Shown here: one piece after another, positions 1,166-10,428 of the stretch | Position numbering within the stretch: the stretch's first letter is position 1 | How the letters are laid out: each line of letters begins with the position of its first letter | Source: Gammaproteobacteria bacterium | Lineage (GTDB): Bacteria > Pseudomonadota > Gammaproteobacteria > UBA6429 > Thiohalophilaceae | Length of the DNA: 10,428 nucleotides | Reading direction: 5' to 3' | NCBI GenBank assembly: GCA_013152045.1 | Contig: JAADGZ010000145.1 | Location: 1 to 10,428, forward strand | Notes under the pieces: generated by a model | What the model saw: the letters and a program-made list of their open reading frames with translations, nothing else | What the model was told of the DNA's origin: nothing | The model's database searches: none | Position numbers and translations under genes: made by a program

Positions 1166-2209
1166 ATGAAGCTTAGTGATTTCCATTATGACCTGCCTGA
1201 GAGCCTGATAGCCCAATATCCGATGGCTGAACGCACCGCCAGTCGCCTGTTATGTCTGCAAGGCCGCAGTGGTGAGCTGACGGATCGGCAGTTTGCCGCG
1301 CTACCAGATTTGCTGCGAGCAGGCGATCTATTAGTCATGAACGATACCCGGGTGATACCGGCGCGTCTTTATGGGCGTAAGGATACCGGTGGCCGGGTGG
1401 AAGTGTTGGTGGAACGGGTGTTGGATAACCAGCGCGTACTGGCCCATGTGCGGGCCAGCAAATCCCCGAAAACGGCCAGTTGTTTACATCTGTCAGAGAC
1501 GGTTGAGGCCGAGGTGCTGGGGCGTGCGGCCGATCTCTTTGAGCTGCGTTTTAGCGATAATGCAGATTCCGCACGTAGCGTGATGGCGATTCTGGACGAA
1601 CTTGGGCACATGCCCCTGCCACCCTATATAAAGCGGGAAGATGAACAGGATTTTGATCGGGAACGCTATCAAACCGTCTATGCTCGGCGGGAAGGGGCGG
1701 TAGCCGCACCCACCGCTGGTTTGCACTTTACCAACCTCATGCTGGATAAACTTCAGCAGCAAGGCATTGCCAGCACCTGGGTTACCCTGCATGTGGGCGC
1801 GGGAACCTTCCAGCCAGTGCGGGTGGAAAATATCGCAGAACATCATATGCATTCCGAATGGCTGGAAGTCAGTGAGGCTGTTTGTACCCAGGTGCAGGAA
1901 ACCCGGGCGCGGGGTGGGCGGGTGATCGCGGTGGGCACGACCAGCGTGCGTAGCCTGGAGACCGCCGCCCTGTCAGGCGAGCTGAAGCCTTTTTCCGGCG
2001 ACACCGATATTTTTATTACTCCCGGTTTTGAGTTCAGGGTGGTGGATGCACTGATCACCAATTTCCACTTGCCGGAATCGACTTTATTGATGTTGGTCAG
2101 CGCCTTTGCCGGTTACGAGAATATTATGCGCGCCTACCGGCATGCGGTAGAAGAACGCTACCGGTTTTTCAGTTATGGTGATGCGATGTTTATTGAAAAT
2201 CAGAGGCAA

Positions 2210-2239
<30 letters not shown>
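1166..2239 (+). CDS. queA: S-adenosylmethionine:tRNA ribosyltransferase-isomerase
   Basis: QueA transfers and isomerises the ribosyl part of S-adenosylmethionine onto preQ1 in tRNA, giving epoxyqueuosine, the penultimate step of queuosine synthesis in the cytoplasm. The 357-residue protein is collinear with E. coli QueA (356). Conserved blocks are the N-terminus [29 protein letters not shown] (about 59-68), APTAGLHFT (about 180-188), [14 protein letters not shown] (about 206-219), [10 protein letters not shown] (about 255-264) and [19 protein letters not shown] (about 298-316). The start is fixed by the conserved N-terminus although no Shine-Dalgarno sequence is visible. The last ten or so residues, after GDAMFI, are basic and unconserved. 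They are encoded by the left arm of an inverted repeat that runs into the tgt leader. tgt follows after 51 bases, as in E. coli. Confidence 0.98.
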
Positions 2240-3448
<1,209 letters not shown>

Positions 3449-3492
3449 TGACGCCCAAAAAACAGGGAGGCTAAATAAGCACCCTGAGTACG

Positions 3493-3537
3493 CCGGTCGG
3501 CAGTCGTTGTCTGCCAACGGAAATTTTCGTTTTTTTT
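3493..3537 (+). terminator. Weak stem-loop followed at a distance by T8, between tgt and yajC
   Basis: CCG (3493-3495) and GGCAG (3499-3503) pair with CTGCC (3511-3515) and CGG (3518-3520), leaving a small internal loop. A run of eight T (3530-3537) begins nine bases after the stem. The gap makes efficient intrinsic termination unlikely, so partial attenuation between tgt and yajC is the most that can be suggested. The 112-base gap holds no other gene. Confidence 0.28.
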
Positions 3538-3560
3538 GATTATTTTAGGAATCTGCATAA

Positions 3561-3896
3561 ATGAGTTTTTTTATTACTGATGCGCTGGCTGAAGGTGCCC
3601 CTGCTGCTCAGGGCGATCCCATGTCGTCCCTGATTTTCTTTGGTGGCATGATTGTTATTTTCTATTTTTTGCTGATTCGTCCGCAGCAGAAAAAAACCAA
3701 AGAACACCGTAATATGGTGGCAGCAATCGGCAAAGGCGATGAAATTGTGACCAATGGCGGCCTGCTCGGCAAGATTACCGATGTCGGTGAAGAGTATGTG
3801 ACGGTTGAACTTGGCGATAACGTCAAGGTCAGACTGCAGAAGCAGGCCGTGATGACGGTACTGCCCAAAGGTACGATCAAGGCGGCAGCCAAATAA
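3561..3896 (+). CDS. yajC: Preprotein translocase subunit YajC
   Basis: YajC is a small inner-membrane protein that associates with SecDF and the SecYEG channel. At 111 residues it has the usual size (110 in E. coli). A short Ala/Gly-rich N-terminus is followed by one membrane helix (about 23-39, SSLIFFGGMIVIFYFLLIRP), then the family motif IRPQQKKTKEH and a cytoplasmic domain with IGKGDEIVTNGGLLGKI and VKVRLQKQAV. AGGA about 10 bases ahead of the ATG serves as ribosome binding site. The position between tgt and secD is the standard gammaproteobacterial one. Confidence 0.97.
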   Translation: MSFFITDALAEGAPAAQGDPMSSLIFFGGMIVIFYFLLIRPQQKKTKEHRNMVAAIGKGDEIVTNGGLLGKITDVGEEYVTVELGDNVKVRLQKQAVMTVLPKGTIKAAAK

Positions 3897-6822: not shown

Positions 6823-6890
6823 TGACGGATAAATACCAGATTAAACAACTTACCTATTAAAACGTAAAAACTGGTTTTAGGATCAGCTAC

Positions 6891-7091
6891 ATGTCGAAAG
6901 ATCCGCAAACTCGGTTTTCAAAAAACTGGTTTTTCTGGAGCATCCTATTTTTTTCAGGTTGTCTTGCGGCTGTCTGGCTGGAATGGCGCAGTTTTACTGC
7001 GCATACGCTAGGCGGGTTCATGGCCATCAGTCTCTGGTCCGCCATCTGTGCCATCGGCTATTCTTTGGTTGACTGGTTTTTAAAAAAATAA
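6891..7091 (+). CDS. Small two-helix membrane protein, unknown function
   Basis: A 66-residue ORF starts at the ATG with AGGA eight bases upstream. A basic N-terminus (KDPQTRFSK) precedes a first hydrophobic segment (about 13-30, WFFWSILFFSGCLAAVWL). After a short polar link (EWRSFTAHT), a second segment runs from about 40 to 62 and ends in LKK. Both ends would therefore lie in the cytoplasm, with a short periplasmic loop. It follows secF by 68 bases on the same strand and may be the last gene of the sec operon. I do not recognise a family. Its position makes a role near the Sec machinery possible but unproven. Tryptophan and phenylalanine are abundant. Confidence 0.68.
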   Translation: MSKDPQTRFSKNWFFWSILFFSGCLAAVWLEWRSFTAHTLGGFMAISLWSAICAIGYSLVDWFLKK

Positions 7092-7174
7092 CACCCTCTG
7101 CCTGTTTTAACCTACCTACACGTAGTCAAATCCTGCCCTTTTTCTATCTCTTTCTGGTTATATGTAACTCATAA

Positions 7175-7196
7175 AATATTGACGTACGTCAATATT
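7175..7196. promoter_or_regulatory. Perfect 22-bp palindrome, probable operator with FNR/DNR-like core
   Basis: Every base of 7175-7196 pairs with its mirror: arms AATATTGACGT and ACGTCAATATT. The central 14 bases read TTGAC-N4-GTCAA, close to the FNR consensus TTGAT-N4-ATCAA and to the looser TTG-N8-CAA shared by FNR/NNR-type regulators. The left half also supplies a -35-like TTGACG. It sits in the AT-rich gap ahead of the cytochrome genes, where an oxygen- or NO-responsive activator would make sense. A TetR-type repressor site is an alternative, since those are often long perfect palindromes. Confidence 0.55.
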
Positions 7197-7226
7197 ATGA
7201 TTTATTAATATGTGCTTATATATGAT
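7179..7226 (+). promoter_or_regulatory. Candidate promoter(s) for the cytochrome locus
   Basis: Two readings are possible. In the first, TTGACG (7179-7184) inside the palindrome is the -35 and TATTAA (7203-7208), 18 bases on, is the -10, so a bound protein would block it. In the second, TATATA (7217-7222) or TATGAT (7221-7226) is the -10. Transcription would then start at about 7229-7233, and the palindrome centre would lie about 43-48 bases upstream, near the class II activator position. A small hairpin GGAAA-CGTA-TTTCC (7232-7245) would follow. Sequence alone cannot choose between them. Nothing equally convincing was seen in 7446-7534. Confidence 0.35.
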
Positions 7227-7283
7227 TAAGAGGAAACGTATTTCCGGTTGTGCCCACAATCTTTAAATGATGGGGTAAAGACG

Positions 7284-7445
7284 ATGCTACAAATTTATAG
7301 TATGCAGGCAAAAGGGAAACTACCTGCATGCTTAACAAAGAATTCTGAGCCGTTGGTTTGTTTCTGCCAACGTAACTCTGACACGCATACTGCTATTGCC
7401 GAGCAATTCTGTCTCTGGCTCAAAGATCCCCCTGTACTTATCTAA
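7284..7445 (+). CDS. Doubtful small ORF, 53 residues, unknown
   Basis: The ATG at 7284 has GGGG eight bases upstream (7272-7275) and encodes 53 residues. A longer reading from TTG at 7248 adds 12. The product has four cysteines (at about 16, 26, 28 and 43, including CFC), no clear membrane helix or signal peptide, and ends LKDPPVLI. It lies just after the candidate promoter and stops 89 bases before the first cytochrome gene, so it could be a leader ORF or a real small protein. It could also be a chance ORF in the otherwise empty 7092-7534 interval. No family is recognised. Confidence 0.33.
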   Translation: MLQIYSMQAKGKLPACLTKNSEPLVCFCQRNSDTHTAIAEQFCLWLKDPPVLI

Positions 7446-7534
7446 ACGCCATGTATCTCTGGTATGAATAGTAGACATAAAAATAAATTATTCAGAGTAC
7501 CGGTCTAAATGCAGTTGTTAGTGGGAGTGTGAGA

Positions 7535-8584
7535 ATGTATAAACATTTACTGGCAAAATTGCTTATTGCCATTGTTGGTTTATATGGCATTGCGGATTAC
7601 AGTTATGCAGGTGACGAGCTTAATTGTGTTCTATGCCATAAATTTCGTGGTCTGAGTCGGATTGACAAGAGTGGCAAGTTTCGTCTGTTCTATATTAACC
7701 AGGAACTGTTTGACAGCGGTCCCCATCGGCGAAATAAATGCAAGGATTGCCACACCGATATCAATAAAATTCCTCATGATCCAGCCAAAAAGGTGGATTG
7801 TACACAGCAATGTCATATGCTTGAACCCTCCAGCCAGCAAAAATTTTCTCACAAGCTGGTGGCCAAGATACTTAAAAAAAGTGTTCACAGCCCAATAGAC
7901 AAGGATGGCAAGCCAAAAAAATATCAGCAAGATTACCCTGGCTGCAAAGATTGTCATGATCAACCCTTTTATCGCCCGTTTTCAATTTATAAGGGTGAAC
8001 TTAAAGCGGGTGTTTCCAAACGTGGTATTACTCGTTGCAGGAGTTGCCACACCAAGGGCTATTTTGCAGAAGACTTCTACGAACACGTTACAACGCGGTT
8101 GCGTAAATCCCGTTCACCTCTAGAGACAATTAACGCCTGCGCTAAATGTCATCAGGACAAGGGTTTTCAGCAACGTCATAATCTCGATGATGTGGTTACA
8201 ACCTACAAACATACTTTCCACGGCGAACTGATTCAACTAGGCTCAGAAAGGACGCCAGACTGTCTGGATTGTCATGTAGTCGAAGGTGAGAACATTCACT
8301 TGATCGAAGCGCAGACGGTGCCAACATCGGCCGTGTATAAAACCAACGTACAGGCAACCTGTCGTACCGAAGAATGTCATAGTAAGGCATCCGCGCAACT
8401 TGCAAGTTTCAAGACCCACGTCACTTACGATCGCAAAAAATATCCGATGGAATTCTATATGCTGATTGGCTTTAAAGCCTTAATGGCCATCGTTCTCTAT
8501 TTTTTCCTGGCCTTGATTTTCATGGAACTGTTGCGACGTTTATTCCCTGGCTTTAGTTTTTTCAAAAAGAAAAATAAAGACTAG
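7535..8584 (+). CDS. Octahaem c-type cytochrome with C-terminal membrane anchor
   Basis: The 349-residue product begins with a Sec signal peptide (about 1-25, cleavage likely after YSYA) and carries eight haem c motifs. Six are CXXCH: C31-H35, C69-H73, C137-H141, C168-H172, C202-H206 and C243-H247. One is CX3CH (CTQQCH, 89-94) and one is CX4CH (CRTEECH, 276-282). Further histidines (for example 64, 119, 184, 226, 229 and 295) could be distal ligands. A membrane helix at about 306-332 and a basic cytoplasmic tail (FFKKKNKD) anchor it, leaving the haem domain in the periplasm. The ATG at 7535 is chosen because GGGAG ends seven bases upstream. A GTG at 7529 would lie too close to it. It most resembles multihaem cytochrome c3-like electron carriers, and no named protein is recognised. 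Role: electron wire to or from the cytochrome b downstream (inference). Confidence 0.95.
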   Translation: MYKHLLAKLLIAIVGLYGIADYSYAGDELNCVLCHKFRGLSRIDKSGKFRLFYINQELFDSGPHRRNKCKDCHTDINKIPHDPAKKVDCTQQCHMLEPSSQQKFSHKLVAKILKKSVHSPIDKDGKPKKYQQDYPGCKDCHDQPFYRPFSIYKGELKAGVSKRGITRCRSCHTKGYFAEDFYEHVTTRLRKSRSPLETINACAKCHQDKGFQQRHNLDDVVTTYKHTFHGELIQLGSERTPDCLDCHVVEGENIHLIEAQTVPTSAVYKTNVQATCRTEECHSKASAQLASFKTHVTYDRKKYPMEFYMLIGFKALMAIVLYFFLALIFMELLRRLFPGFSFFKKKNKD

Positions 8585-8620
8585 ACGTTTAAATAAACAA
8601 GTTTTGAATGAGGTGTAATT

Positions 8621-9436
8621 ATGTCTAAATATGATCCGATTGTTTATCAGGATGGCAAACGCCTGTTCTACCGGTTTTCCGCACATCAACGGGTGCAGCA
8701 TGTTGTCTTGTTTTCCTGTGTTATTACTCTGGCTCTGACCGGCCTCCCGTTGCGTCATGCGGGAGAAAGTTGGGCCAAACCGATGTATAGCTTTTTAGGT
8801 GGGCCAGAGCTGGCTCCGCTGATTCACCATACTGCAGGCTCTATATTGTTGGCGCTGTTTGTCTATCACACGATCTACTGGATGGGGCTGTTTTACAAAA
8901 ATCATATCGGCAAGTTAAAACGAGAAAATCGTTTAACCATTATCAATGCGGTTAAGGAATTCTTTTCTCAGGAAATGGTGCCTAATAAAAAAGATCTGAT
9001 GGATGTCATCCATTTGTGGAAATACCTTTTCTATTTGCGCCAGCATCCACCCAGGCATGAAAGAATGTCATGGCGGGAAAAATTTGATTATTTTGCACCC
9101 TACTGGGGCATTCCCATTCTTGGCCCAGCAGGTGTAGTGCTTTGGTGGCGAGACGAGTTTTCTCACATCATGCCAGGCTATCTGATGAATGCCGCCTATA
9201 TCATGCATACCGATGAAGCCTTACTGGCAATATTATTTCTGTTCTTTGTGCATTGGTACAACGTGCATTATGCACCCGAAAAATTTCCGGCGGCGACGGT
9301 CTGGCTGACGGGGTACCTGACCGAAAATGAAATGATTCATGAGCATTACAGCCAGTATGTTCGCATCATGATCGAACAAGGGTTGGAAGATCAAATCAAA
9401 CCTCAACACTTTGCTGGGGAGGAATACGAATGGTAA
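8621..9436 (+). CDS. FdnI-like membrane cytochrome b subunit
   Basis: The 271-residue protein resembles the gamma subunit of formate dehydrogenase-N and [NiFe]-hydrogenase-type cytochromes b, which pass electrons between the quinone pool and periplasmic partners. The N-terminus YRFSAHQRVQHVVLF is typical. Membrane helices are predicted at about 26-44, 66-92, 160-176 and 192-216. Candidate haem b ligands are His27, His69/70 and His83 on the N-terminal helices, and His196, His211 and His216 on the last helix, so two haems are likely. It lacks haem c motifs and iron-sulfur motifs. GAGGTG six bases before the ATG is the ribosome binding site, and the gap to the octahaem gene is 36 bases. It would be the quinone-reactive core of the complex. 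Confidence 0.94.
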   Translation: MSKYDPIVYQDGKRLFYRFSAHQRVQHVVLFSCVITLALTGLPLRHAGESWAKPMYSFLGGPELAPLIHHTAGSILLALFVYHTIYWMGLFYKNHIGKLKRENRLTIINAVKEFFSQEMVPNKKDLMDVIHLWKYLFYLRQHPPRHERMSWREKFDYFAPYWGIPILGPAGVVLWWRDEFSHIMPGYLMNAAYIMHTDEALLAILFLFFVHWYNVHYAPEKFPAATVWLTGYLTENEMIHEHYSQYVRIMIEQGLEDQIKPQHFAGEEYEW

Positions 9437-10347
9437 AGCTAATCAAAAAAATTGTTTTCAAATTGTATGTGATTTTCCTTATGGTTTTCACTGTCTGGTA
9501 TGGCTATTTTATGTATCCCTTAATTTTCGGTTTTGAAGGTAAGGAAAAAGCAGAAGCATCATTAAAGGAACTGGGGCATGCAGGAACTGACAAGGAACAA
9601 ATGTTTGTCAAACTGATTGCCGAGCAAGCGCAGACCAGAAAAACCGATCTTGGATACAGGGTGATTGATCAACCTTATATTGAAGGCCGTTTTCACAATA
9701 TTGGCATATCAGTTAAACCCGATAAAGCCAGCATCTGTGTACGTTGTCATGGTAATGTGCCGCATAATCGTTCCAAAGAAATACGTAGCTTTCTGAATAT
9801 GCACGCCTTTTACCTTGCTTGTGAAACCTGTCATATTCAACCTGAAAAAGGTGCGTCAGACTGGAAATTTCGTTGGTATGACAAGAATACAGCCAAGGTC
9901 ACACACAACCCCAAGGCGCTTGCGGAAATTGAGGGTTCCTACGAGACAAGCGAGAGTATGCAAAAATATCCAATGTATGGTAACTACGGCGCAAAAATAG
10001 CACCTGGAAAAATAGTAAATGGAAAATTCATGTTTTTGCATAATAAAAAAGATATGGATTTTGTTAATCGCTACATTGCCGAGCAGGATCATTTGGGGCC
10101 GGAGCAGAAGTCACAAATGAAACGGGTTATTCATGAGGCGGTAAACAAAAAACCGCTCATGTGTGATCGCTGTCACCAGAAAAAAGCACCGTATATTCCA
10201 TTTGCCAAACTGGGCTATCCACCCAGACGGGTTGATGAGTTGACCGACACCTCGGTAGTGGGCATGATCAGAAAATATAAAGCCTTCTATATTCCTAATT
10301 TTCTCACTCCAGGGGTAACACATACAGAGAGGGCAAGACAGCAATAA
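9430..10347 (+). CDS. Membrane-anchored trihaem c-type cytochrome
   Basis: The 305-residue product has an uncleaved-looking N-terminal helix (about 9-31) after a basic start (MVKLIKKIVFK), placing the rest in the periplasm. Three CXXCH motifs are visible: C103-H107, C131-H135 and C245-H249. A region of about 110 residues without a haem motif separates the second from the third and may fold as its own lobe. His112, His125 and His235 are possible distal ligands. The gene overlaps the cytochrome b gene by seven bases (ATGGTAA) and has a strong GGGGAGGA ribosome binding site, so the two are translated together. It is not a standard NapC/NrfH protein, which carries four or more closely spaced haems. 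No named family is recognised. Confidence 0.94.
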   Translation: MVKLIKKIVFKLYVIFLMVFTVWYGYFMYPLIFGFEGKEKAEASLKELGHAGTDKEQMFVKLIAEQAQTRKTDLGYRVIDQPYIEGRFHNIGISVKPDKASICVRCHGNVPHNRSKEIRSFLNMHAFYLACETCHIQPEKGASDWKFRWYDKNTAKVTHNPKALAEIEGSYETSESMQKYPMYGNYGAKIAPGKIVNGKFMFLHNKKDMDFVNRYIAEQDHLGPEQKSQMKRVIHEAVNKKPLMCDRCHQKKAPYIPFAKLGYPPRRVDELTDTSVVGMIRKYKAFYIPNFLTPGVTHTERARQQ

Positions 10348-10356
10348 TCGATATAC

Positions 10357-10396
10357 TGGCTCTTCAGCCTTCGGATTACAGAGGATTGAAGAGCCA
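10357..10396 (+). terminator. Stem-loop after the cytochrome operon (possible terminator or mRNA 3' stabiliser)
   Basis: TGGCTCTTCA (10357-10366) and TGAAGAGCCA (10387-10396) form a perfect 10-bp stem starting ten bases after the stop codon. An inner CCT/AGG pairing narrows the 20-base loop. The bases after the stem (CTATCTTAATC) are not a proper T-tract, so termination may need a factor. It suggests that the operon ends with the trihaem gene. Confidence 0.45.
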
Positions 10397-10428
10397 CTAT
10401 CTTAATCGCAAGCAAGCATTTATATTTC

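Follow-up and report, generated by a model that had tools for sequence, protein, structure and literature searches.

We studied a three-gene locus on contig JAADGZ010000145.1 of a Gammaproteobacteria bacterium (family Thiohalophilaceae, assembly GCA_013152045.1). The analysed window is the entire 10,428-base contig (C6 of genome G000), and the assembly comprises 2.26 Mb and is 67% complete. The genes, in the following referred to as A, B and C, encode an octahaem cytochrome c, a cytochrome b and a trihaem cytochrome c. A, B and C form a real, conserved three-subunit unit. We interpret this unit as a single inner-membrane complex that belongs to the CbcL/CbcBA class, includes a trihaem subunit C in addition and works as a non-catalytic quinone:multihaem-cytochrome c oxidoreductase, and assign a probability of roughly 0.78 to this reading.

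All three genes are located on the + strand, i.e., A at 7535-8584 (349 amino acids (aa); translation could alternatively start from a GTG at 7529), B at 8621-9436 (271 aa) and C at 9430-10347 (305 aa). Based on the coordinates of the open reading frames (ORFs), the distance is +36 bases between A and B and -7 bases between B and C. The three-gene layout given in an initial annotation of this DNA, with gaps of 36 and -7, is thus confirmed, and so are its 11 c-haem motifs (8 + 3) by our motif count. The annotation had also seen no catalytic or iron-sulfur (Fe-S) subunit before a closing stem-loop. This is reproduced here: within the window, neither the ORF list nor the Pfam/NCBIfam searches reveal a catalytic or Fe-S gene adjoining A, B or C, and the ORF list contains no + strand ORF of at least 80 aa besides the trio from A to the window end.

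The co-occurrence of exactly this trio had been set beforehand as a check. For this, we used 40 genomes of the window's order, all from one family. C scores above 320 bits in 8/40 genomes and A above 430 bits in exactly those 8, with A and C adjacent every time; in one of them (G054), A is interrupted by the contig start. Diverged A and C matches of a second type occur in more of the 40 genomes. Outside this survey, relatives at E <= 0.001 number 459 for C and 291 for A, of which the best 120 each were listed. Among 39 loci collected from named genomes by matches to C, 35 show A, B and C in this order. The remaining four are two loci at a contig edge (L024, L049), a broken one (L031), and L059, a weak C match without A and B beside it. 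Since these loci were collected via C, they are uninformative on A-B pairs without C. Another 13 loci from 11 genomes (L115-L127, where L127 is the same place as L055) were fetched for high-scoring A. Here, B is present in 13/13 and C in 12/13, and the A-B ORF of L122 reaches the contig end. L115 has three separate genes, while L118 and L042 show A followed by a B-C fusion.

Natural fusions join the three parts in several ways. A B-C fusion with three haems is found in 16/18 of the loci L041-L058, whose records are mostly titled Desulfobacterota or Deltaproteobacteria and in some cases only Proteobacteria or uncultured. The B/C split of L041 is not used as evidence, because a frameshift may have caused it: L047, a close relative, has the fusion. 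An A-B fusion followed by C is present in G231 (L124, same place as L094) and G090 (L095). Finally, a single 889-aa ORF of G056 (L126) comprises A-B-C with exactly 11 haem motifs (8 + 3). The topology suggested by the membrane anchors, i.e., a cytoplasmic location of the C end of A, both ends of B and the N end of C, would allow every fusion junction.

We also built a tree from 88 B domains (support pairs in brackets). The window's type clusters with B-C fusions, plus a single A-B fusion, from other genomes (100/99), while the second gammaproteobacterial type is joined by A-B-C and A-B fusions (100/100). The third cluster (98/99) contains B-C fusions from Desulfobulbaceae/Desulfocapsaceae as well as some separate-chain sets. 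Given this grouping, different junctions seem to have been fused in different branches. The tree is to be read with caution, as several long branches, including that of the A-B fusion L084, were flagged by the program.

Subunit A is composed of a likely signal peptide (a hydrophobic stretch at its N end), a periplasmic eight-haem domain and a C-terminal transmembrane anchor at about aa 305-335 (8447-8539, + strand). Its eight c-haem motifs (six CXXCH, one CX3CH and one CX4CH) start at aa 31, 69, 89 (CX3CH), 137, 168, 202, 243 and 276 (CX4CH), counted from the ATG at 7535. Haem counts made with a CX2-4CH pattern may overcount. A chance origin of the motifs is ruled out by 2000 residue shuffles, since shuffled A and C almost never contain CXXCH (on average 0.036 per A and 0.003 per C, none with more than one). 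In an alignment of 49 A proteins, covering both gammaproteobacterial types and Desulfobacterota, the eight motif histidines are conserved in 49/49 rows, and nine further histidines (64, 81, 106, 118, 184, 215, 229, 255, 295) in at least 47/49. The spacing of the eighth motif varies among the 49 rows, i.e., CX4CH in 34, CX2CH in 8 and CX8CH in 7. The CX8CH form, as found in A of L041, L044, L046, L050, L052 and L057, is non-canonical and only a putative haem site. The AlphaFold model of A (predicted local distance difference test score, pLDDT, 76; predicted template modelling score, pTM, 0.64) features a long C-terminal helix at 304-336. The annotated octahaem protein with a C-terminal anchor is therefore supported by motifs, hydropathy and model. 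Within the profile libraries, A is above the Pfam cut-off for Cytochrome_C7 only, and no NCBIfam cut-off is reached by A, B or C.

Subunit C is a trihaem cytochrome c that is anchored by a hydrophobic stretch at its N end, as had been annotated. Its CXXCH motifs are located at aa 103, 131 and 245, and four extra histidines (89, 112, 125, 235) are conserved in 20/20 aligned C proteins of the window's type. In the library search, C is over no Pfam cut-off; the HmcA and TmcA models give 14-16 bits only (cut-offs 400 and 114), and no match for A. Single-protein searches of the PDB yield nothing informative apart from a weak match of C to the octahaem cytochrome 1sp3 (E 0.013). With nine spare histidines for eight haems in A and four for three haems in C, there are enough ligands for bis-His coordination of each c haem. 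This favours a role in electron transfer over a catalytic haem. We also considered A as an octahaem enzyme of the OTR/HAO type and rejected this based on the spare conserved histidine per haem and the best PDB match of the A profile (E 0.13).

Subunit B is assigned to PF01292 (34.4 bits, cut-off 30.1), has no c-haem motif and shows several hydrophobic stretches. When a profile of 13 B rows is searched against the PDB, FdnI of formate dehydrogenase-N is retrieved (1kqf_C, E 9e-7). The residues H27, H69, H196 and H211 of the window's B, conserved in 13/13 rows, align on four FdnI histidine columns, which we take to be haem ligands. When the model of a relative's B-C fusion (L055) is searched with Foldseek, the best match is again 1kqf_C (E 1.3e-4, TM score 0.74 by target length). 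B is thus the FdnI-like cytochrome b that the initial annotation had named, and it would carry two b haems.

Judged from sequence, the A-B core appears to be of a known kind, while the trihaem C and the three-chain form differ. CbcL is described with nine bis-His c haems and ten extra histidines in its periplasmic domain and a dihaem six-helix membrane domain, and it pairs with the trihaem PpcA in a redox complex (PMC9129911). The CbcL/MtrH/MtoC family (Geobacter, Rhodoferax, Fe(II) oxidisers) is reported to span 416-1034 aa and 3-23 haem motifs (PMC6295460). CbcBA (GSU0593/GSU0594) consists of a cytochrome b (PF01292) and the heptahaem membrane-bound CbcA, which are two subunits of the five-subunit Cbc5 complex (PMC7726332).

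We compared such proteins with our A and B profiles. In the window's own genome, contig C290 encodes a 644-aa, nine-haem CbcL-like fusion with 200 bits for profile B, as well as 62 bits (at 204-341) and 44 bits (at 18-102) for profile A. CbcL-like proteins match profile A only partially (62-66 bits at ~202-343, weaker 44-52 bits at 18-102), compared to more than 430 bits for the A of trios. Within the phylum of Desulfosediminicola (297 genomes, at most six candidates scored per genome), some A-profile match is found in 149/297 genomes, 19 of them with E <= 1e-60; three of these 19 (G055, G056, G058) had been preselected as module holders. Many of the remaining A-profile matches are ORFs of 600-700 aa that cover only ~202-343. 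Candidate CbcBA-like pairs (L108-L114) combine A-like proteins of 9-11 motifs with a B of 190-225 bits. For L108-L113, the best profile A match of the A-like protein has 81-94 bits and is located in the C-terminal half, and profile B gives 190-203 bits. Since B and parts of A match such proteins, the A-B core is probably of the same kind as CbcL/MtrH/MtoC and CbcBA, such that the label "undescribed" of the initial annotation is not supported as far as the kind of system is concerned. A description of the trio itself or of its fusions was not found among the open-licence PMC papers that our searches listed, whose supplementary files may contain the genes.

Like the CbcL/MtrH/MtoC proteins, the trio combines a b-type membrane domain, in which the histidines expected to ligate haem are conserved, with a multihaem c part that can be bis-His ligated. 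Unlike in CbcL, the parts are distributed over three chains, such that the window encodes b and c parts by different ORFs and fusions occur only in relatives; A has eight instead of nine haems, and an anchored trihaem C is added. Compared by description, CbcBA of Geobacter sulfurreducens shares the separate PF01292 cytochrome b and membrane-bound multihaem c, but A has eight motifs in 49/49 rows where CbcA is heptahaem, and a trihaem C is not part of the pair. B aligns with FdnI (1kqf chain C) over most of its length and retains its four haem-ligand columns. Unlike for formate dehydrogenase-N, no FdnG/FdnH-like gene is present in the window, and the multihaem A and C would replace these subunits on the periplasmic side. 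A formate dehydrogenase remnant was rejected, as the window has no FdnG-size ORF and A and C are strictly conserved. The initial annotation had related the trio to the Hmc, Tmc, Nhc and Ohc complexes of sulfate reducers, in which multihaem c cytochromes are combined with membrane b-type subunits. This comparison is less apt, because B belongs to the PF01292/FdnI type and the window shows no Fe-S gene from A to its end, 81 bases past C; for the latter reason, a complex of the Hmc/Tmc type is regarded as unlikely.

With regard to function, we infer that the three subunits assemble with haem-to-haem continuity. B would span the membrane with four helices and hold two b haems stacked across it as in FdnI. 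Electrons would thereby be exchanged between the periplasmic side and a site for quinone close to the cytoplasmic side. The eight c haems of A and the three of C would constitute a periplasmic wire, held by one anchoring helix per subunit. The third haem of C would be far from the first two, and by analogy C could act as a built-in trihaem partner. Likely external partners are soluble periplasmic or outer-membrane multihaem cytochromes, e.g., those encoded beside the sister trios discussed below. Of the quinone-linked electron conduit proposed initially, the quinone-linked module of b and c cytochromes is thus probable, while a conduit across the whole envelope is not provided by the trio itself, which would be an inner-membrane port.

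For the direction of transfer, we considered the gene content of the hosts. In the 40 family genomes, dsrA is over the cut-off in 29/40 and RuBisCO in 32/40, and G000 has both; the trio genome G053 is without dsrA and the trio genome G012 without RuBisCO over the cut-off. By its class, Dsr presumably runs in the sulfur-oxidising direction in these hosts. Three of the 40 genomes (G002, G020, G041) have menA over the cut-off of 102 bits, another 12 give weaker menA matches that reach 95 bits, and MqnA/D (PF02621) is found in 0/40. The trio genomes G018 and G048 (each 97% complete) have neither a menA nor an MqnA/D match. As the hosts are mostly without clear menaquinone genes, the quinone is presumably ubiquinone, for which transfer from low-potential multihaem cytochromes to the quinone would be downhill. 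The potential of ubiquinol is about +0.1 V. Electrons may thus run from the periplasm to ubiquinone more readily than in reverse, and with an FdnI-like quinone site, quinone reduction would build proton-motive force. The opposite direction would be possible above all where menaquinone is present.

Several observations weigh against our interpretation as a complex of this class and against the preferred direction. The AlphaFold model of the L055 B-C fusion is weak (pLDDT 64, pTM 0.44), and haem spacing can therefore not be judged from it; for the A model, Foldseek finds no PDB fold match at E <= 0.001. Since rows of CbcBA-like and CbcL-like proteins are interleaved with trio B proteins, the latter do not form one clade in the B tree. 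C is not universal, given the CbcBA-like A-B pairs without C (L108-L114), and in G024 an A-like match of 204 bits is not accompanied by any match to C. Concerning direction, the trio genomes G002 and G020 carry menA over the cut-off, and some of the matches below the cut-off in other genomes (85-95 bits) could be divergent menA, such that menaquinol oxidation is possible. Furthermore, in the treatment of CbcL/MtrH/MtoC by Zhong and Shi, no sequence feature separates quinol-oxidising from quinone-reducing members (PMC6295460).

Among the alternatives on function, export is a real possibility, though one to which we give less than even odds. That is, the trio would oxidise quinol and pass electrons to periplasmic or extracellular acceptors (Fe(III), electrodes, partner cells), as Geobacter CbcL/CbcBA do. 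CbcL and CbcBA are needed for the reduction of low-potential Fe(III) or electrodes (PMC9129911), and the cytochromes that Desulfurivibrio alkaliphilus upregulates when oxidising sulfide with ferrihydrite include a CbcL homologue (PMC12545173). The menA genes of G002 and G020 point in the same direction, as do the genes for NHL-repeat proteins and 12-23-haem cytochromes that adjoin sister trios in relatives. In seven gammaproteobacterial loci (L021, L022, L027, L029, L030, L034, L035), a second, ~30% identical trio is located beside the first; this second trio is complete in L021 and cut by the contig end in L035. Based on sequence clusters and haem counts, these double trios are surrounded by NHL-type proteins, 12- and 18-23-haem cytochromes and a protein of 664-720 aa. 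A family search in L022 yields PF01436 NHL (106 bits) and paired-CXXCH cytochromes; its 717-aa protein matches no Pfam family and could be a porin, given its size and place. The window's genome has a second set as well, where contig C127 holds an A fragment, B, C, an NHL-looking ORF and a 12-haem fragment. NHL units belong to Uet (PMC10734462), and a Geoalkalibacter locus may be a relative, for which two NHL proteins are described together with MtoA-like cytochromes and a cytochrome that putatively oxidises or reduces quinol (PMC12016550). The sister trios are thus similar to OetABI/Uet/PCC3 in their neighbours. In contrast, no porin or outer-membrane cytochrome is found beside the window's trio, which could thus provide no more than the inner-membrane terminus of a conduit of this type. 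Two points speak against export: clear menaquinone genes are missing in most host-family genomes, and transfer from ubiquinol to low-potential multihaem cytochromes would be uphill, such that an FdnI-type site would spend proton-motive force.

It is doubtful whether the trio acts instead as a general hub, i.e., as the membrane arm of an unlinked periplasmic enzyme (e.g., of sulfur or nitrogen metabolism) encoded elsewhere. In the window as well as in G002, no multihaem cluster is located beside the trio. Homologues of the porin-sized protein are found in 5/8 trio genomes compared to 5/32 others (Fisher p 0.015, uncorrected for kinship), with no match in G000 (67% complete) or G002 (92% complete). 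Since G002 has the trio but not the porin-sized protein, a trio of the window's type can work without that conduit. A pairing of the kind proposed for a hub is encoded in the window's genome (L060 on C290), where an HAO-like octahaem protein (PF13447, 77 bits; 149-1684) is directly followed by the CbcL-like nine-haem c-b fusion (1816-3750), possibly a nitrogen-linked quinone module. On the other hand, none of the neighbouring genes is shared by all trios of the 20 loci L021-L040, where most neighbours were not family-searched and an enzyme partner may thus have escaped notice; the commonest neighbour (cluster cl3) is present in 9 loci, and cytochrome clusters are found in several.

A more specific version of our interpretation appears unlikely as a whole, i.e., that A-B-C is a ubiquinone-reducing entry port which generates proton-motive force from extracellular or interspecies electrons in Dsr- and RuBisCO-bearing Gammaproteobacteria, and that it works outward, re-wired by repeated gene fusion, in Desulfobacterota. 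That A, B and C are three electron-transfer proteins of one operon without forming a complex is very improbable given three kinds of natural fusion, among them one chain with all parts, and the strict co-occurrence of A and C.

Apart from Geobacter and Shewanella, little is understood of how extracellular electron transfer proceeds at the inner membrane. If the trio reduces ubiquinone and gains proton-motive force, it would be an energy-conserving site of electron uptake. The trio and its fused versions are a candidate marker of the inner-membrane step in uncultured Gammaproteobacteria and Desulfobacterota. They link CbcL/CbcBA-like proteins to a trihaem subunit for which we found no name, and the single-chain version of 889 aa is a practical target for structure work.

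Parts of the unit are also observed in other combinations. In L061 (3001-6058) and L062 (4062-7203), a larger protein carries an A-like domain towards its C terminus, and the genes for C and a 12-haem cytochrome come next. In L061, the one of the two loci covered by the family search, the larger protein has a NapH-type Fe-S membrane domain (PF12801, Fer4_5) ahead of the A-like domain. Both loci look like cases in which the c parts were swapped onto another quinol module, i.e., modules were apparently exchanged. Proteins of 312-317 aa with six haem motifs are encoded in L063 (4939-5892), L064 (4516-5460) and L125 (1221-2159). Each is a single chain with similarity both to the N-terminal haems of A and to the latter half of C.

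The cl3 proteins (241-285 aa, with a hydrophobic N end) are encoded near C in nine gammaproteobacterial loci, e.g., at 10949-11707 of L022; the one member searched has no Pfam or NCBIfam match. In L031 (CP070733.1, the chromosome of a metagenome-assembled genome), the cl3 gene is on the opposite strand. Here, a B remnant and C are found together while the best A match (positions 20-228 only) is ~1.9 Mb off by coordinates, due to either a rearrangement or a misassembly.

Concerning the surroundings of the trio within the window, the stem-loop after C (10350-10401, + strand) is a possible 3' end of the transcript. Its fold agrees with the closing stem-loop of the initial annotation (-24.8 kcal/mol, z -5.1), while a pattern scan finds no terminator-like pattern or T-run there. 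The contig stops 81 bases past C, such that the sequence right of the window is unreadable in G000. In the closest relative (83-87% identical), a gene for a DUF4136 protein comes next after C on the same strand, followed by genes on the opposite strand. A promoter scan was uninformative (10 found vs. 8.3 expected). Left of A, we find a tRNA-Leu as well as ORFs that we take to be ordinary genes, namely a ppc fragment, queA, tgt, yajC, secD and secF. Between the secF-like gene and A, about 700 bases (6823-7534) are without a long ORF. This stretch is partly conserved, with ~70% identity over 343 columns to the matching place in L040.

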